From Thiohalocapsa sp. (lineage in GTDB: Bacteria; Pseudomonadota; Gammaproteobacteria; Chromatiales; Chromatiaceae), in assembly GCA_021736785.1 (NCBI GenBank), contig JAIPFF010000003.1, forward strand, positions 1 to 64,000: 64,000 nt of DNA. Direction: 5' to 3'. Positions within the stretch are counted from its first letter, which is position 1; every line of letters starts with the position of its first letter. Below are positions 7,041 to 21,624 of the stretch, piece by piece. The position numbers and the translations under genes are program-made. The notes beneath the pieces are model-generated. The model was given only the letters and a program-made list of their open reading frames with translations, was not told where the DNA came from and did no database searches.

Positions 7041-7526
7041 ATGACGCTGCAACGTAAGCTCAAGCTGGTCGGCGACGACAGTACATCGGCGGGCGCCGCA
7101 CCTTCCATCAAGGTCGCCTTCGCCAGCGCCGACCGCCGGCGCGTGGATCAGCACTTCGGCGCAGCCGAGGGTTTCGTGATCTACCGCATCGATCCCGGTA
7201 GCTACGAGCTGCTGGAGGTGGCGCAGTTCGGCCGGCTCGACATGGACGGCAACGAAGACAAGCTCGCCGCCAAGATCGAGGCCTTGACCGGCTGCATCGC
7301 GGTCTACTGCCAGGCCGTCGGCGCCTCCGCCATCGGCCAACTGCGCGCCAAGGGCATCCAGCCCATGAAGGTCGCGCCCGACACCCTGATCAGCGGCCTG
7401 CTGCGCGAGCTGCAGCGGGATCTGCGCGAAGGCCCGAGCGCCTGGCTCACCCGTGCCATCGCGGCCCAGTCGCCGGCCAGCAAGAGCCGCTTCGACACCA
7501 TGGAAGCGGAGGGCTGGAGCGAATGA
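7041..7526 (+). CDS. nifX: FeMo-cofactor carrier protein NifX
   Basis: NifX belongs to the dinitrogenase FeMo-cofactor binding family (with NafY and the NifB C-terminus) and carries cofactor precursors between NifB and NifEN. The 161-residue product contains the typical VAFASADRRRVDQHFG start of the fold and the GCIAVYCQAVGASA segment. GGGAGAA lies 7-13 bases upstream of ATG 7041. The last four bases overlap the start of the next gene (ATGA), so the RseC-like protein is translationally coupled to nifX. Confidence 0.95.
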   Translation: MTLQRKLKLVGDDSTSAGAAPSIKVAFASADRRRVDQHFGAAEGFVIYRIDPGSYELLEVAQFGRLDMDGNEDKLAAKIEALTGCIAVYCQAVGASAIGQLRAKGIQPMKVAPDTLISGLLRELQRDLREGPSAWLTRAIAAQSPASKSRFDTMEAEGWSE

Positions 7527-13509: not shown

Positions 13510-15525
13510 ATGACCAACGCTCTTATGCAGATGTCCACGGCGGCGCACTCGGAGCTCTCCGCGTTGCGCGAGCGATTGTCCGCCCTCGAGGTGGCGATCG
13601 CGAACGAGTCAACGGCGCCGGCGCCGGCGCCCCACGCGCGCATGCAGATGCGCGGGCCCGGAGACACCCTGACGCTGCTGCGAGGCCTGCTCGAAGGGAC
13701 TATCGACAGCACCGGCGACGAGTTCTTCCGTGCGCTGGTTCGCCACTTGGCGTCGACGCTGAAGGTGCGGGACGCCTTTGTCGCCGAGGTGCTCGAAACC
13801 GAAGGACGCGTCCGGACGCTGGCGTACTGGAGCGGCGACGGCTACGTCGACAACGTCGAGCTCGACGTCGCCGATACGCCCTGCGAGCGCGTCCTGCAGG
13901 GCGAGTCGGCCTTTTTTCCGGAGCGTGTCGCCGAGCACTTTCCGCGCGACGCGCAGACCATCGAGCGGCTCGGAATCGAAAGCTATCTCGCGATCCCGAT
14001 GACCGATCGCAACGGCAGGGTCATCGGGCACCTTGCCGCCATGGATGATGCCCCCATGGATGTCCCGGAAGCGGCAATGTGGGTGTTCAAGGCGTTCGGT
14101 TCCCGCGCCGCCGCCGAGCTGGCGCGACAGCGGACGGAGGCGGCGCTGGCGCAGAGCAGGGCCCGGCTCGCGGGTGTCTTCGATTGCGCCATGGATGCCA
14201 TCATCGGCATCGATTCGACGCTGCGCATCACGCTGTTCAATCAAGCCGCCGAGGAGGTCTTCCGCTGCACCGGCGCGCAGGTGATCGGGACATCTTTCGA
14301 GCGCTTCGCGTCCGAGCGATTCGCCCGCTTGATTCGGGAATCGATCCAGGCCTTCGAGCGCAGCGGCTGGCGCAAGCACTTTCTCTGGGCGCAGGGGCTG
14401 GCGGCCTTTCGCGGCGACGGCGACGCCTTTCCGGCCGACGTCAGCCTGTCGCCGTTTGCCGTCGGGCGGGAACGGCACGTCGCCATTATTCTGCGTGACG
14501 CGCTGATCAGGCTGCGGGCGGAGTCGGACATGGAGCGGCTGCGCGACGAGAACGTGCAGCTCCAGGGCCTGATCGACTCGAGCCGGGAAGATTCGGGCAT
14601 CATTGCGGTGTCCGCGCCCGTTCAAAAGGTCTTGGACGCGGTCGAGCGGGTCGCCGCCACCAGTACCACCGCGCTGATCATCGGCGAGACCGGCACCGGC
14701 AAGGAACTGATCGCCCGCGCGGTGCACCGTGCGAGTCCGCGCCGGGACAAGCCGCTGGTCAAGGTCAACTGCGCCGCGCTGACGCCGTCGCTGATCGAGA
14801 GCGAGCTGCTCGGTCACGAGCGCGGCGCCTTTACAGGCGCGCACGCGCGCAAGCTCGGGCGCTTCGAGCTCGCCAACGGCGGCACGCTGTTTCTGGACGA
14901 GATCGGCGAGCTGCCGCTGGATCTGCAGGCGAAGCTGTTGCGGGTGCTGCAGGAGGGCGAGCTCGAGCGCGTCGGCGGCACCGCCAGCATCCGGGTCGAC
15001 GTGCGGATCATCGCCGCGACCAACCGCGACCTCGAGAAGTGCGTCGAGGAAGGCAGCTTCCGCCAGGACCTGTACTACCGGTTGAACGTGTTCCCGCTTC
15101 GCGTGCCCCCGCTGCGCGAGCGCCCGGAGGACATCGAGGTGCTGATCCGGCACTTCGTCGCCAAGTTCGGTAAGCAGATCGGCCGACCGATCCGGGCCAT
15201 CAGCCGTGCGGTCATCGACGCACTGACGGCCTACGAATGGCCGGGCAACGTCCGCGAGCTGGAGCACGTCATCGAGCGCGCGGTGATCCTGGCACCGGGG
15301 GACCGCTTGGAGCTCGGCGACTGGCAGCCGCGTGCCTCGTCGCCCCGGCTCGACGCCCGCACGGATCAGACCCTGGAGGCCGTCGAGCGCGCGCACATCC
15401 TGTGCGTGCTCGACAAGACCGCCTGGCAGGTCAGCGGACAGCGCGGTGCCGCGCGCATTCTCGGTCTCAAGCCCACCACCCTCGAGTCCCGCATGAAGAA
15501 GCTCGGAATCCGGCGCTCGCGCTGA
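13510..15525 (+). CDS. Sigma-54-dependent transcriptional activator (GAF-PAS-AAA-Fis)
   Basis: This enhancer-binding protein has about 671 residues. It has a GAF domain (about 60-215), a PAS domain (about 220-345), the AAA+ domain (about 375-615) and a Fis-type helix-turn-helix at the end ([25 protein letters not shown]). Walker A (GETGTGKE), the sigma-54-contact loop GAFTGA and Walker B ([11 protein letters not shown]) are all intact. It is not a response regulator; the signal is probably sensed by GAF/PAS. The start is unclear: ATG 13510 is preferred, GTG 13435 is possible, and neither has a good ribosome site. The sigma-54 promoter and paired palindromes at 15960-16107, close downstream, are its likely target. 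Confidence 0.92.
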
Positions 15526-15553
15526 TCACCCGTCCCCGCGCGGGCTTTGCCGG

Positions 15554-15826
15554 CTAGTCCTCCGAGGTCGGCTGCAACGTCGTATCGATGCGGGAGATCC
15601 GCGTCGTCGGGAACCCGCACTCGTCCGAGACCCTTCGAATCAGCTCCTCGTCGATCGCGACGTACATGCAGTAGATCTTGTCGTCGGCGACGAAGCTCTG
15701 CAGCCACTGAATCCCCGGATCCGCCTGCACGATCGTGCTCTCGAGGCGCCGGCACATGCTGTCCAGATCCTCCTCCGAGAGCTCGCAGGCACGCGGCAGC
15801 TCTCGTTCGACGATGTACTTGGGCAT
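15554..15826 (-). CDS. DUF4242 (SCO4226-like) small protein
   Basis: This 90-residue protein begins MPKYIVERELPRACELSEEDL and contains the DUF4242 pattern (SFVADDKIYCMYVAIDEELIRRVSDECGFP). A Streptomyces member of the family binds nickel, but the general role is not established. GAGGAG lies close upstream of the start codon on the minus strand. The gene converges with the sigma-54 activator, with only 28 bases between their stops, and its promoter side faces the palindromes at 15960-15993. Confidence 0.8.
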   Translation of the reverse strand: MPKYIVERELPRACELSEEDLDSMCRRLESTIVQADPGIQWLQSFVADDKIYCMYVAIDEELIRRVSDECGFPTTRISRIDTTLQPTSED

Positions 15827-15959
15827 CGCTCATTGTCTCCTCGTAGACCACCGAAATGTACCGCCCTGCGTCGGCGCACGACGGCATCGAACCGGGCGTC
15901 GTGATCGTCGTCCGGGGCGCCTCGTCAACGAAATGGGGCAAGTCTTGCCGGCTACCAGT

Positions 15960-15993
15960 TCCCGATCCCTCGGGAGATCCCGAAATATCGGGA
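15960..15993. promoter_or_regulatory. Two tandem palindromes, probable activator binding sites
   Basis: Two perfect copies of TCCCGA-N4-TCGGGA lie at 15960-15975 and 15978-15993, centres 18 bases apart. They are about 110 bases upstream of the sigma-54 promoter at 16092. Paired dyads at this distance are the standard arrangement for an enhancer-binding protein; the activator gene at 13510-15525 is the obvious candidate. Confidence 0.75.
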
Positions 15994-16091
15994 AGACACA
16001 GGCACGGCGACACCACGCCGGAAATTGTCGCAAAGCCCTTTAATGATTAAAAAACAGCGCTTTAAAAACACAAAAAGGCATCTGTCATGGT

Positions 16092-16107
16092 TGGTACGCC
16101 GGTTGCG
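16092..16107 (+). promoter_or_regulatory. Sigma-54 promoter of the beta-propeller gene
   Basis: TGGTACGCCGGTTGCG has GG at 16093-16094 and GC at 16105-16106 with exact N10 spacing. It differs from TGGCACG-N4-TTGCW at only two positions. The predicted start is near 16118, giving a leader of about 150 bases. Confidence 0.75.
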
Positions 16108-16271
16108 CTATGGGATGCGGGCCGCGGCGGCGGACACCGACGAGGTGTCCTCACCCGGCTCGCGGAGCCCGTCTTCGGTGCTCCATCGCTCTTTCAACGG
16201 CCAGCCTCGCGAGCGCCCATCGCGCCCTCGCGACCACGGCCTCGATCGATCCCTTAATGAGGACATATCCC

Positions 16272-17420
16272 ATGCGTAAGCACGATTCGAAATTCCACCT
16301 CGACCAGCGCCTGCTCGCCGGTTTGACACTCGCTGTCGGCCTCGGTCTCTCCGTTCCGGCATCCGCGGTCGTCTACACGGCCTCCAATGAGGTCACGGCC
16401 AACGAGATTATCGCCTTCGACGTCGAAAGGGACGGCACGTTGAGCGAAATCGGCCGCTTCGATACCCAAGGCGCCGGCACCGGCACGCCGCTGGGCAACC
16501 AGAGCGCGCTGGCCACCGATGCGAGCGATCGCTGGCTCTTTGCCGTCAATCCCGGAGACGGCACGCTGACCAGCTTCCGCCTGCAGGAGAAGGGCCTGCA
16601 GTTCGTCGACCTGGAAGACTCGGGCGGTTATCGGCCCATCAGCGTGACGGTCTTCGGCACCCTGGTCTATGTGCTGAACGAGGGCGACGGTGCCAGCACG
16701 GACCCCTACTACCGCTACGACAACATCAGCGGCTTCCGCTTCACGGCCGGCGGTCTGCTCGAGCCGATCCCCCACTCGACCCGCATTATCGACGATACCC
16801 AGCTCACGGCTCCGGCCCAGGTGGGCTTCAACAAGTCGGGCACCGTGCTGCTGATCACCGAGAAGGCCACGGATACGCTGACGACCTTCGTCATGCAGCA
16901 GGACGGCACACCGGCCGCCACCCCGTTGAAGCGCCCGTCCGCGGTACCGACGCCGTTCGGCTTCCAGTTCGGCGACCGCGATTTCGTGTTCATCACGGAG
17001 GCAAACGGCGGCGCGCAAGGCGTCACCGCCAGCTACCGCATCGACCGCGAAACCGGCGCGGTGTCCGACGCGGTGGGCCTGGTCCAGCAAGAAGACGCCA
17101 CGTGCTGGACCGTGCTCAACGCGGATCAAACCCTCGGCTACTCCACCAACACCGCCAGCGGCACGGTGTCGATCTATCGCATCGGCTTCGCCGGTAACCT
17201 CAATCCGTTCTTCCAGAGGTTCCAGCAAAACCGGGTCTCGTCCGTACCCACGGGCGCGGGGGTACGCGACGCGGTGCTGTCGCAGAACAACCTTCATCTG
17301 TTCACGCTCAATAACGGTGACGGCGAACTGCGCTCGTTCAATCTCAACCGGCGCGGCGCCATTCGTCCCGTGAATGCCGTCTCGATTCCGGACAGCGCAA
17401 CCGGCCTGATGTCTCGTTGA
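16272..17420 (+). CDS. Exported beta-propeller (lactonase-fold) protein
   Basis: This 382-residue protein carries a clear signal peptide (residues 1-32, ending PASA before VVYTASNE). The mature part is built of repeated blades such as VVYTASNEVTANEIIAFDV, LATDASDRWLFAVNPGDGTL and GTLVYVLNEGDGAS. This matches the seven-bladed lactonase/YVTN-type propeller group; no catalytic residues can be assigned. AGGA lies 9-12 bases before ATG 16272. The sigma-54 promoter and paired palindromes upstream point to tight, inducible control. It may bind or process a small molecule in the periplasm. Confidence 0.85.
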   Translation: MRKHDSKFHLDQRLLAGLTLAVGLGLSVPASAVVYTASNEVTANEIIAFDVERDGTLSEIGRFDTQGAGTGTPLGNQSALATDASDRWLFAVNPGDGTLTSFRLQEKGLQFVDLEDSGGYRPISVTVFGTLVYVLNEGDGASTDPYYRYDNISGFRFTAGGLLEPIPHSTRIIDDTQLTAPAQVGFNKSGTVLLITEKATDTLTTFVMQQDGTPAATPLKRPSAVPTPFGFQFGDRDFVFITEANGGAQGVTASYRIDRETGAVSDAVGLVQQEDATCWTVLNADQTLGYSTNTASGTVSIYRIGFAGNLNPFFQRFQQNRVSSVPTGAGVRDAVLSQNNLHLFTLNNGDGELRSFNLNRRGAIRPVNAVSIPDSATGLMSR

Positions 17421-17487: not shown

Positions 17488-20400
17488 TCAGTCCGACTTG
17501 TCCGTACCGGATGCAGGTGGCGGCGGTCGGCCCGCCCGCCCTTCGCCCGAGGATCGGGTTGCGGCGGTGGTTCTCGCTGCCGCCTTCTTCGCTGCCGTCT
17601 TCTTCGTCGCGGCTTTTGACGCCTCCGCCTTCTTCCCGGCCGGTGATCTTGCGCCCGTTTTTTCGGCAGGGGACTTGTTCGCTGCCGTTTTCCGTGCTGC
17701 CGTTTTCTTTGCGGCCGTCTTCTTCGACGCTGTCTCACTCGCCGGCGACGTCTTGGCCGAAGCCCGCTTGACGGCAATCTTCTTGGCCGTCCGCGAGCGC
17801 GCGGTCGACTGCGCCGGAGTTGCGTTGGCGTTGGCATTGGCCTTGACGGGATGCTCGTCGGTCGCTCGCCGGTCGGCGACCTGATTCGCGGCTGCCCCGC
17901 TCGGCGGTGCTGCCGGCGCCGGGCTGCCCGCCGGCGGCCCCGGCGGACCGGCACGCCTGCTGCCCCCTGCCCCGTCCTCGTCCCCGCCCCCATTGTTCTC
18001 GCCGCCGTCGCCGTCGTCGCCCCCCTGCTTTCCGTCCCCTTCGATTTCTCCGTAGCGGTCGGACAGGACGATTTCGCCGGTGTCGGTCTCGATGAGATAG
18101 AACTGCTTGCGCAGCGAAATGCAGCCCAGCGGAATGACGATAACGGCCATCAGCGTCGCCACGCCGGCTCCGAACAGCAGGCTGACGGCCATGCCCTGGA
18201 AGATCGGATCCTGGATGATGGCCCAGGCGCCGGCCATCAGGGTCAGCGAGGTGATCAGGATGGGGCGCATGCGAATCTCTGCGCCGGCGACGGCCGCTTC
18301 GTGCACGGGCTTGCCCTTGGCCACTTCGAGCTTGACGAACTCGACGATCAGGATCGATTGACGCACGATGATGCCGCCCAGCGCGATCAGGCCGATCATG
18401 GACGTCGCCGTGAACTCCGCCCCCATGATCAGGTGGCCCGGGATGATGCCGATCAGCGTCAGCGGGATCGGCGACATGATGAGCCCGGCCACCGCAAAGT
18501 TGCGGAACTCCCAGACGATCAGCCCGTAAATCAGGACCAGCGCCGCCATGAAGGCGAGGCCCATGTCGCGGAAGGTCTCGTAGGTGACGGTCCACTCGCC
18601 GGTCCATTCGAAATCGGCAACCGCCTCGGTCTTCGGCGGGCCGATGAGGCCGTCGGGCATGCCGCTCATGGACTCGCCCGGCCCCGGCGGGTCGTAGTCT
18701 TCGAGTCGATCTTCGACGCCGAGCATGCCGTAGATCGGTGCGCCCAGGCGCCCTTCCATTTCGCCGACGACGTATTCCATCGGCCGCAGGTCCTTGTGAT
18801 AGATGATGTGATCGGCGGGCTGCCGCACGAAGCGCCCGACCTCCGCCAGCGGCACCATCTGCCCGCTCGGCGACTGCAGCGGCAGGCTGCCCAGCGTGGC
18901 GATCTCGGAGCGGTAGGACAGCGGCACTTGGATGACGATATAGGTCGGCTCCTGCACGGTGCCGCGCTTGACGTCGCCGATCTTGTAGCCGCCCATTGCC
19001 ATGGCGATATTGCGGTTGATGACGTCCACCGAGATCCCCTGCCGCACGGCCTTCTCGGTGTCGACCTCGAAGCGCCAGTCGGAATGGGGCTCGATCATGT
19101 AGTTGTCGACGTCGACAATGCCCTCGGTGCGCTCGAACATCTCGGTCAGGTCGGCGGCGACCTCGCGGCGGATCTCAGCGGTCGGCCCGTAGACCTCGGC
19201 GACGACGGTCTGCAGCACCGGCGGCCCGGGCGGCATCTCGACGACGGCGATGGTGGCGCCGAGCCGCTGCGCGAGCGGCGCCAGCAGCTCGCGGGCGGCC
19301 ACCGCCAGCGCATGACTGCCGCGCTCGCGCTCGTTCTTGTCCTTGAGGATCACCAGCAGGTCGCCCTGCCACGGGCGGTCGCGCAGGTAGTAGTGGCGCA
19401 CCAGGCCGTTGAAGTTGAACGGCTGGGCGGTGCCGGCGTAGGTCTGGACCGCGACCACCTCGGGTAGCTCGCGCAGCTTCTCGGCAAGCTGGCGCACCAC
19501 ATTGGCCGTCTCCGGCAGGGCCGTGCCCTCGGGCATGTCGACGACGACGCTGAACTCCGGCTTGTTGTCGAAGGGCAGCATCTTCACCGGCACCACCTTG
19601 AAATAGAACAAAGTGCAGACCAGCGCCGTGGCCGCGATGGTGCCGACCAGGAACAGGATGCCCAGGCTGCGGTTGCGGATCAGCGGCATCACCAGCGGCC
19701 GGTAGATGCGCCCGACCACCCGGCGGGTCACTTCCTCGCGGCGCTCGGCGCGCTCCAGCGCCTTCAGCCGCGGGCGCACCCGCAGCGCGAACCAGGGGGT
19801 GAAGACGAAGGCCGCGACCAGCGAGAAGAACATGGCCGATGAGCCCAACACCGGGATCGGGCGCATGTAAGGCCCCATCAGGCCGCTGACCCAGCCCATC
19901 GGCAGCAGCGCCGCGATGATGGTGAAGGTGGCGAGGATGGTGGGATTGCCCACCTCGTCGACGGCGGCCACCGCCTCGGAGATCGACGTCTGGCCGATCT
20001 CGAGCCAATGCCGGAAGATGTTCTCGACCACCACCGTGGCGTCGTCGACGAGTATGCCGATGGCGAAGATCAGCGCGAACAGGCTGACCCGGTCGATGCT
20101 GTAGTCGACCATCCAGGCCCACCAGATGGTCAGCAGGATGACCACCGGGATCACCGAAATCACGACCACAGCCGCGCGCAGCCCGAGCCCGATCAGGCAC
20201 AGCAGCGAGACGATGGCTGCTGCCTCGAACATGGCCTGCAGCAGCTCGTTGACCTTGTCGTTGGCGGTCCGGCCATAGTTGCGCGTGACCATCACCTCGA
20301 CATTGCTCGGGATCATGCGCTGCTCGAGGGTGTCGAGCTTGGCCAGCACGGCCTCGGCCACGGTGACGCCGTTGGCGCCCTCCTTCTTCGCGATGGCCAG

Positions 20401-21330
20401 CGTCACTGCCTGAGCGCCGCGGGCCTGCGGCCCATCGCTATGGGCCGGGCCGGTGAAATGGGTGACCAGCTGGCTGGTCTCCTCCGGCATCCGCAGCACG
20501 CGCGCCACGTCGCGCACATAGATCGGCAGGCCGCCCTGGCTGCCGACGACCAGCCGGCCGATGTCGTCGGCGTCCTCCAGGAAAGAACCCGAGTAGACGT
20601 TGTAGGCCTGCCCGCCCCCTTCCACTTCGCCGGTCGACATCTCGGCGTTGGCGCCGCGGATGGTCTCCGCGATGCGATCGAGCGTGATGCCGTAGCCGGC
20701 GAGGCGCTCCATCATCACCTCGACGCGGATCTGCTCTTCCCGCCCGCCGACGATGAAGCCCTCGCCGGTGTCGGGCACGGCGCCGAGCTCCTGCAGGACG
20801 TCCAGGGCCAGCGTGCGCAATTGGGCGTCCTCGACCTCGTCCGACCACAGCGTCAGCGTGACGATGGGCACGTCGTCGACGCTGACGGGTCGTACCAGCG
20901 GCGGCTTCACGTCCGGCGGCACGCGATCCATGTTCGACTGCAGCTTGTCGTGCACCTTGACGATGGAGGCGCCCATCTCCTGCCCGACCAGGAAGCGCAC
21001 CGTGACGATGGCTTCGCCGCGGCGGGTCGCCGAGTAGACATGGCGCACGCCGGGAATCTCCATCATCAGCCGCTCGAGGGGCTCGGTGACCAGGCTCTCC
21101 ACCTGTCGGGCCGACGCACCGGGGTACTCGATGAAGACGTCGATCATCGGCACCGAGATCTTCGGATCTTCCTGGCGGGGGGTGAACAGCAGGCCGAGCA
21201 GGCCGACGCAGAGCGCGCCGATCAGCAGCATCGGCGTGACGGGGGTATTGATGAATGTTCGGGCGATGCGCCCGGCGAGGCCGGTGGCGGCCGACCCGGA
21301 GTGCTCCGGTCGATGCTGGGCGCTGTCCAT
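17488..21330 (-). CDS. RND-family efflux permease with histone-like C-terminal tail
   Basis: This inner-membrane proton-driven pump has about 1,280 residues. The first 1,090 form a normal RND permease: a first membrane helix (PVTPMLLIGALCVGLLGLLF), a porter segment (QEDPKISVPMIDVFIEYPGA), then two further clusters of helices. After SDRYGEIEGDG comes a Gly/Asp-rich linker, and then about 110 residues dominated by Lys, Ala and Thr with repeated KKTAAKK-type units like bacterial histone H1-like proteins. That tail should lie in the cytoplasm. The start at 21330 (MDSAQHRPEHSG) was chosen over an upstream frame that lacks family similarity. No membrane-fusion or outer-membrane partner gene is adjacent. 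Confidence 0.9.
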   Translation of the reverse strand: MDSAQHRPEHSGSAATGLAGRIARTFINTPVTPMLLIGALCVGLLGLLFTPRQEDPKISVPMIDVFIEYPGASARQVESLVTEPLERLMMEIPGVRHVYSATRRGEAIVTVRFLVGQEMGASIVKVHDKLQSNMDRVPPDVKPPLVRPVSVDDVPIVTLTLWSDEVEDAQLRTLALDVLQELGAVPDTGEGFIVGGREEQIRVEVMMERLAGYGITLDRIAETIRGANAEMSTGEVEGGGQAYNVYSGSFLEDADDIGRLVVGSQGGLPIYVRDVARVLRMPEETSQLVTHFTGPAHSDGPQARGAQAVTLAIAKKEGANGVTVAEAVLAKLDTLEQRMIPSNVEVMVTRNYGRTANDKVNELLQAMFEAAAIVSLLCLIGLGLRAAVVVISVIPVVILLTIWWAWMVDYSIDRVSLFALIFAIGILVDDATVVVENIFRHWLEIGQTSISEAVAAVDEVGNPTILATFTIIAALLPMGWVSGLMGPYMRPIPVLGSSAMFFSLVAAFVFTPWFALRVRPRLKALERAERREEVTRRVVGRIYRPLVMPLIRNRSLGILFLVGTIAATALVCTLFYFKVVPVKMLPFDNKPEFSVVVDMPEGTALPETANVVRQLAEKLRELPEVVAVQTYAGTAQPFNFNGLVRHYYLRDRPWQGDLLVILKDKNERERGSHALAVAARELLAPLAQRLGATIAVVEMPPGPPVLQTVVAEVYGPTAEIRREVAADLTEMFERTEGIVDVDNYMIEPHSDWRFEVDTEKAVRQGISVDVINRNIAMAMGGYKIGDVKRGTVQEPTYIVIQVPLSYRSEIATLGSLPLQSPSGQMVPLAEVGRFVRQPADHIIYHKDLRPMEYVVGEMEGRLGAPIYGMLGVEDRLEDYDPPGPGESMSGMPDGLIGPPKTEAVADFEWTGEWTVTYETFRDMGLAFMAALVLIYGLIVWEFRNFAVAGLIMSPIPLTLIGIIPGHLIMGAEFTATSMIGLIALGGIIVRQSILIVEFVKLEVAKGKPVHEAAVAGAEIRMRPILITSLTLMAGAWAIIQDPIFQGMAVSLLFGAGVATLMAVIVIPLGCISLRKQFYLIETDTGEIVLSDRYGEIEGDGKQGGDDGDGGENNGGGDEDGAGGSRRAGPPGPPAGSPAPAAPPSGAAANQVADRRATDEHPVKANANANATPAQSTARSRTAKKIAVKRASAKTSPASETASKKTAAKKTAARKTAANKSPAEKTGARSPAGKKAEASKAATKKTAAKKAAARTTAATRSSGEGRAGRPPPPASGTDKSD

Positions 21331-21624
21331 CCGGTTGCCCTGGCGCTCGTCGTTGCGGGAAACGGCCCCGCAGCGATCGGCGCTCGGCCGGCAGAGATCG
21401 AGCGGCAGCGCGTGCACCGCAACAATCGCCGGCGGCGCCGAGGGGTCGACGCTCGGCAAGGCCTCGGTACTGCTATTGAAGCTAGTCCAAGCCAGCGGCA
21501 ACGACAAGCCGGTGCGCAAAGCCGCGCGCGGCGGAGCGCCCCCGAGTCATTGCCGCGGACGTCGTCTCCGGGCAGGGCCAATCGATGCCCGGGGGCGCAT
21601 CCCGAAAACCGAGTGCTTGCGCGA

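Follow-up and report, generated by a model that had tools for sequence, protein, structure and literature searches.

A sigma-54-dependent activator, a pair of palindromic sites, a sigma-54 promoter and the gene of an exported lactonase-type beta-propeller protein lie close together in Thiohalocapsa sp. (contig JAIPFF010000003.1, positions 1 to 64,000; this stretch of 64,000 nucleotides is called the window here). Very probably the locus forms a genuine circuit of local control, and its sequence makes it highly likely that the circuit has a single target, with the activator acting through the paired sites on the propeller gene. The parts were all in place, the site pair was rare, and gene order and site geometry were conserved across three genomes with diverged site letters. 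A first-pass annotation of this DNA had described an intact GAF-PAS-AAA-Fis activator, two perfect TCCCGA-N4-TCGGGA palindromes and a strong sigma-54 promoter, and all three were confirmed (Table 1).

Table 1. Features of the putative circuit, numbered from the first letter of the window.
Feature	Position	Strand	Evidence
Sigma-54 activator, GAF-PAS-AAA-Fis, 671 amino acids, intact	13510-15525	+	Pfam, motifs, orthologues, clade support
SCO4226-like (DUF4242) protein, 90 amino acids	15554-15826	-	PF14026 match, homologues in L004 and L011
Upstream activator site 1, TCCCGATCCCTCGGGA, putative binding site	15960-15975	.	Sequence, rarity, paired geometry in L004 and L011
Upstream activator site 2, TCCCGAAATATCGGGA, putative binding site	15978-15993	.	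Sequence, rarity, inner tetramer AATR
Spacer, site pair to promoter	15994-16090	.	G+C content, IHF consensus check
Sigma-54 promoter TTGGTACGCCGGTTGCG, -24 GG at 16093-16094	16091-16107	+	Consensus score; equivalents at L004 6840, L011 6795
Exported lactonase-type beta-propeller protein, 382 amino acids	16272-17420	+	PF10282 match, relatives

The five domains of the activator (GAF, PAS, Sigma54_activat, AAA lid and HTH_8) all scored above their Pfam cut-offs, with 239.8 bits for Sigma54_activat (cut-off 20.2) and 26.5 bits for the Fis-type DNA-binding domain HTH_8 (cut-off 22). The Walker A, GAFTGA and Walker B (GTLFLDE) motifs were intact. A sensing role is implied by the predicted GAF and PAS domains. 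In NCBIfam, 36 families matched; in each of the 25 shown, the protein stayed under the curated cut-off. The search for the activator covered 210 genomes of the window's family and the genomes of three loci treated below (L004, L005 and L030). The genomes of the window, L004 and L011 scored 912-947 bits, which is high by construction, since the profile was built from these three loci; the best protein reached 369-428 bits in genomes G130, G171, G404 and G954. Within the family, 7 of 210 genomes passed an E-value of 1e-150; only G000 and G151 exceeded 900 bits, and the next score was 544.

Both palindromes were perfect, each 16 bp long with a 6-4-6 build, and their centres were 18 bp apart. Exact TCCCGA-N4-TCGGGA occurred only in these two copies in the 5.2-Mb genome of the window, where the pair, with up to three mismatches allowed, was likewise found once. 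In the window, single sites with up to two mismatches were no more frequent than expected by chance (5 versus 5.0 expected). Of 200 simulated 64-kb windows, none contained an adjacent pair of perfect 6-4-6 palindromes sharing one arm sequence, and 23 contained such a pair with any arms. When the intergenic region was shuffled with its dinucleotides preserved, 0/300 shuffles scored as high as the pair. The site score was handmade after the three linked loci had been seen, and the intergenic limits for the shuffles were chosen by hand; for the loci L035 and L037 they rest on an assumed activator start. A scan consensus, TYCCRA, was derived from the window and L011 and is circular for those two. 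A terminator or attenuator was considered and is unlikely, because the palindromes precede both the start codon of DUF4242 and the promoter of the propeller gene, and inspection by eye showed no T-run following them on either strand; a DUF4242 transcript starting further upstream could still include them.

Sigma-54 promoters were scored against a hand-weighted consensus (maximum 20). The promoters of the window, L004 and L011 reached 18.0, 18.0 and 18.7, and the per-site p of the window promoter was 1.6e-5 against the window itself. The distance from the site pair to the -24 GG was 99 bp in the window, 98 bp in L004 and 115 bp in L011. Such a distance is usual for enhancer sites. The spacer had a G+C content of 45%, versus 66% in the window. 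An IHF site between the sites and the promoter was sought and not accepted, with the best match in the window agreeing at 7/9 consensus positions.

A contig scan for close propellers found locus L004 in a metagenome-assembled genome (MAG) of the Competibacteraceae (70% identity) and locus L005 in a Nitrospirales MAG (69%; genome G954). Locus L011 lies in G151, a genome of the same family as the window. The activator, the opposite-strand DUF4242 gene and the propeller gene followed in the same order in L004 and L011. Together with paired palindromes and a sigma-54 promoter, these genes were present in all of the genomes with an activator orthologue (3/3), so that the linkage of activator and propeller, on which the first-pass annotation had staked its reading, was found in relatives. 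The core interpretation is strengthened by this conserved arrangement. Among open reading frames (ORFs) of at least 120 amino acids outside the cassette in the fetched L004 and L011 stretches, one weak match to the window was found, with 30% identity. The activator orthologues were 61% (L004) and 58% (L011) identical to the window protein across the PAS-to-Fis part, and the three formed one clade against their nearest relatives (support 98/97).

The sites in L011 were TTCCAA-TATA-TTGGAA and TCCCAA-AATG-TTGGAA, and those in L004 CTCCAC-TATT-TTGGAA and TTCCAA-AATA-GTGGAA, with one base between the two sites in either case. The second inner tetramer, AATR, was common to the window, L004 and L011, and 0/300 shuffles reached the pair score in each of the two relatives. 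Of the palindrome pair and neighbours that the first-pass annotation proposed to seek in other genomes, the order and the paired 6-4-6 geometry thus recurred, and the letters of the palindromes varied: across the three linked genomes, the site geometry is kept and the site letters are not.

The first sensor domain also differed: the window activator has a GAF where those of L004 and L011 have a PAS. Four sister activators carry a GAF with 44-46% identity to that of the window, so that GAF is the likely older state and was not accepted as a new gain in the window; the PAS in the two relatives looks like its replacement. The earlier idea of a dedicated sensing system therefore stands as far as a local sigma-54 circuit is concerned; a shared unknown signal is not implied, because the first sensor domain differs.

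In the proposed mechanism, a signal would be received by the GAF/PAS part of the activator. Two activator dimers would occupy the paired 16-bp palindromes, which lie some 100 bp ahead of the -24 element; the activator would assemble an AAA+ ring and open sigma-54 RNA polymerase at 16091-16107, from where the exported propeller gene would be transcribed. Binding, activation and transcription are what we infer from the sequence.

Propeller loci with at least 61% identity numbered six. The three with the activator had paired sites and a promoter, and the three without it (L005, L012 and the truncated L014) had neither a sigma-54 promoter nor paired sites; the best pairs there were equalled or exceeded in 40/300, 293/300 and 273/300 shuffles, respectively. 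Genome G130 held two propeller copies, L014 7865-8683 and L012 2389-3516, with upstream DNA that looked similar by eye; the L014 copy ceased to match at residue 278. Among more distant propellers, L013 was at 224/300 shuffles; L031 and L032 were left out of the pair scoring. No sigma-54 promoter above 15.0/20 was found in L005, L012, L014, L013, L031 or L032. No match to the activator was found in the fetched stretches around L031 and L032, whose genomes were not searched. The distant propeller of L030 (7311-8486, 39% identity), which comes from another family, had a near-perfect sigma-54 promoter at 7185, and a CCTCAA-N4-TTGAGG palindrome lay a short way upstream; the same contig encoded a sigma-54 activator from a different branch.

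The propeller matched in 4/194 and 4/210 genomes of the window's family and order, the window genome counted, and in none of nine other listed genomes of its genus. At class and phylum level, samples were searched for the propeller only (E <= 1e-60), and matches were found in 4/369 genomes (the window and three at 37-40% identity) and 1/398 (the window), respectively. Among the genomes searched, the propeller thus has a sparse and patchy distribution. Nine of 72,556 plasmid records matched, every one below 60% identity.

The propeller protein matched PF10282 with 51.6 bits (cut-off 21.7) and was 62-72% identical to four relatives. Its ORF could begin at 16110; the ATG at 16272, with a signal-peptide-like N-terminus ending in ASA as judged by eye, fits the relatives. 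A 6-phosphogluconolactonase was considered and rejected, as the PRK11028 model gave 20.3 bits, far below its cut-off of 370. An AlphaFold model built from three sequences had a mean predicted local distance difference test (pLDDT) score of 44, too low for the model to be used. In a sequence search of solved structures, the best E-value for the propeller profile was 0.0009, and the DUF4242 protein had no meaningful match.

The DUF4242 protein scored 63 bits against PF14026 (cut-off 28.5), and its homologues in L004 and L011 were 39% and 38% identical. Judged by homology, it is a conserved companion of the circuit, present in all three linked loci. The gene lies between activator and propeller, as first described; it is convergent with the activator and divergent from the propeller, and because it is on the opposite strand it belongs to no transcription unit with either.

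The propeller is the single output in the window, as the first-pass annotation had it, but not in L004 and L011, where a PEP-CTERM-type gene precedes the propeller gene in a putative operon. The same gene pair was present in L005. The PEP-CTERM signal was over the Pfam cut-off of 20.7 in L004 (28.3) and just under it in L011 (20.2); against TIGR02595 (cut-off 16), L005 was over with 25.5 and L004 scored 15.6. In L004, an extra small ORF with no family match over cut-off came first after the promoter. A STAS-like gene (below cut-off) followed the activator in L004 and L011, and no match to it was found in the window. A profile of the PEP-CTERM partner had no match in the window genome and matched 12 of 209 genomes. 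The match in G151 (1e-133) is circular, since the profile was built partly from L011; four genomes of the window's genus matched weakly (1e-15 to 1e-24). A remnant of the gene in the 164-bp propeller leader was not supported, as no tblastn match was found. The exosortase profile EpsH (TIGR02602) had no match over its cut-off of 105.55 in the window genome, with 21.5 bits at best. It was exceeded in G151 (two proteins), G130 and G171, and G404 had no match. The ancestral circuit probably had two outputs, a PEP-CTERM-type protein and the propeller. Most simply, the PEP-CTERM part was lost from the window copy and the propeller stayed; a gain of this part in the other loci is a possible alternative.

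Five sister activators (L033-L037) were 46-49% identical to the window activator, with a homologous GAF in four of the five. A paired 6-4-6 site with 18-bp spacing was found near the activator in L034, L035, L036 and L037, and 4/300, 0/300, 0/300 and 0/300 shuffles, respectively, were at least as good. The 6-4-6 site type is tied to the activator clade by these four of five sister loci, and as the sites stand near other targets, the window circuit appears to belong to a clade of such local circuits. Strong sigma-54 promoters were present in L034, L036 and L037. L034 and L036 are near-copies. In both, an exported MsrA-Trx-MsrB gene is divergent from the activator (L034 7744-9075, by Pfam; L036 8867-10198, by its matching start), and a perfect CCCGCGA-N4-TCGCGGG palindrome and a sigma-54 promoter lie between the two. 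In L037 (3700-5951, minus strand) and L035 (4227-6296, plus strand), genes for a small membrane protein, an acetyltransferase-like protein and a cysteine-dioxygenase-like protein stand beside the activator. The first two were called by eye and the third by Pfam in L035 and by eye in L037; the small membrane protein of L037 had no Pfam match. The paired sites of L035 and L037 were of the CCGCGA type, and the L035 site falls within the longest possible ORF. These predicted neighbours hint at envelope sulfur or oxidation stress in two or three independent loci. A few kilobases from the activator of L034 (1076-2723, minus strand), genes of the MbnB/TglH/ChrH type (329.9 bits) and of DUF2063 (76.7 bits) were also observed.

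Several observations weigh against a circuit of this kind and its proposed history. The L004 sites are imperfect, with 4/6 and 5/6 arm pairs, and the -24 element of L011 is 115 bp from its sites rather than 98-99 bp. The arms differ (TCCCGA versus TTCCAA) despite a near-identical recognition-helix region of the activators. Only three linked loci were available, and both descent and transfer between them are possible. On its propeller side, L030 gave a borderline pair result (10/300 shuffles) and a sigma-54 promoter of 19.2/20 without this activator. L033 showed no paired site (142/300 shuffles; the stretch is short and perhaps the wrong region), and neither L033 nor L035 had a sigma-54 promoter of at least 17.5. 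The absence of an exosortase rests on one profile, with the weak match noted above present in the window genome.

A broader scenario can be offered tentatively, and we hold it doubtful as a whole. The clade of GAF/PAS-PAS activators, each with an exported or envelope target and 6-4-6 pairs with arms of its own, might consist of modular envelope-damage circuits. This branch would control a PEP-CTERM-type protein and a propeller by a sigma-54 route independent of PrsK/PrsR, and the window copy would have shed the PEP-CTERM part and the exosortase, leaving the propeller as the working product.

The activator might instead have captured the propeller for defence of envelope methionines and thiols against oxidation, which would make the circuit an oxidative or reactive-chlorine response. 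We consider this unlikely. The exported MsrA-Trx-MsrB genes and the cysteine-dioxygenase-like clusters beside the sister activators point in this direction, as does a Met/Lys-rich repeat peptide that immediately precedes the sister activator of L033 (60-365; no Pfam match; judged by eye to be exported); periplasmic MsrAB has been tied to hypochlorite resistance (PMC9404787). Against it, L034 and L036 are near-copies, which leaves few independent cases, the sensor domain was exchanged (PAS for GAF) in L004 and L011, and the DUF4242 protein and the propeller have no demonstrated tie to sulfur oxidation. No msr gene was recognised near the L004, L011 or window circuits, where part of the neighbours was profiled.

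It is less probable still that the palindromes serve a different regulator, perhaps one that controls the divergent DUF4242 gene, and that the neighbouring activator works elsewhere. The sites do sit in a divergent intergenic region, and these genomes encode further sigma-54 activators (best 369-430 bits; about 60 first-look candidates in the window genome). Paired sites nevertheless co-occur with the activator clade, also in four sister loci; the stretches fetched for the five sister loci (3.5-14 kb) yielded no DUF4242 gene. A sigma-54 promoter facing DUF4242 was sought and rejected, the best minus-strand scores in the three linked loci being 13.0-14.2/20, and the distance from the sites to the -24 element is typical of enhancer sites. 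A chance neighbourhood of unrelated genes with accidental palindromes, in keeping with the chance-level count of single sites and the 23 simulated windows with adjacent pairs of any arm, has next to no likelihood: order, sites and promoter recur in two further genomes with diverged DNA, which contradicts chance, the flanking genes are not common to the linked loci (one weak match excepted), and no simulation gave a same-arm pair.

The local circuit favoured here is of a known kind, its parts are ordinary and nothing is overturned by it. Activators of the NtrC/NifA/NorR/FhlA type likewise combine an AAA+ domain carrying GAFTGA, a Fis-type helix-turn-helix and N-terminal sensor domains with an adjacent target gene, and use palindromic site pairs placed some 100 bp ahead of a -24/-12 promoter, a likeness that is seen here in the sequence. 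The window activator differs in lying below the NCBIfam cut-offs, in the TCCCGA-N4-TCGGGA letters and in its propeller target.

PrsK/PrsR control is similar in that genes of exported proteins are preceded by a sigma-54 promoter with an upstream activator site, and a PEP-CTERM-type gene is part of the putative operon in L004 and L011. Haft et al. 2006 (PMC1569441) describe sigma-54 promoters and a proposed PrsR site before PEP-CTERM genes and state that more regulators and motifs are still to be discovered. According to the same source, the mean spacer there is 62.8, versus 98-115 bp between sites and -24 element here. An identity of the activator with PrsR was rejected: TIGR02915 (PrsR) gave 340, under its cut-off of 502.6, and no receiver domain (Response_reg) was matched in the window, L004 or L011 activators. 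The window genome also lacks a full-score exosortase.

The propeller resembles the PF10282 lactonase-type seven-bladed propellers by its profile match and differs in the signal-peptide-like N-terminus and the low PRK11028 score. The DUF4242 protein is in the same Pfam family as the nickel-binding protein SCO4226 (PMC4186839), a likeness seen in the profile match. Two further reports state that PEP-CTERM expression can be RpoN-dependent (PMC9850573) and link sigma-54 to the cell exterior (Francke et al. 2011, PMC3162934). Within the literature searched, we found no paper on this activator-site-propeller arrangement, on DUF4242 with sigma-54, on a GAF-containing sigma-54 enhancer binding protein together with methionine sulfoxide reductase, or on a combination of propeller, PEP-CTERM and lactonase.

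The circuit is compact enough for a joint test of its regulator, site, promoter and product, and the arms TCCCGA, TTCCAA and CCGCGA form a small natural series for studying activator-site drift. Should the arrangement seen in the relatives be functional, it would count among the additional PEP-CTERM regulators expected by Haft et al. (PMC1569441).

Adjoining the circuit, an RND-type transporter of the AcrB family is encoded on the minus strand (17488-21519). Its Lys/Ala-rich C-terminal tail scored 39.8 bits against a histone H1-like HC2 profile, just below the cut-off of 40; such a histone-like tail is odd for an efflux pump.

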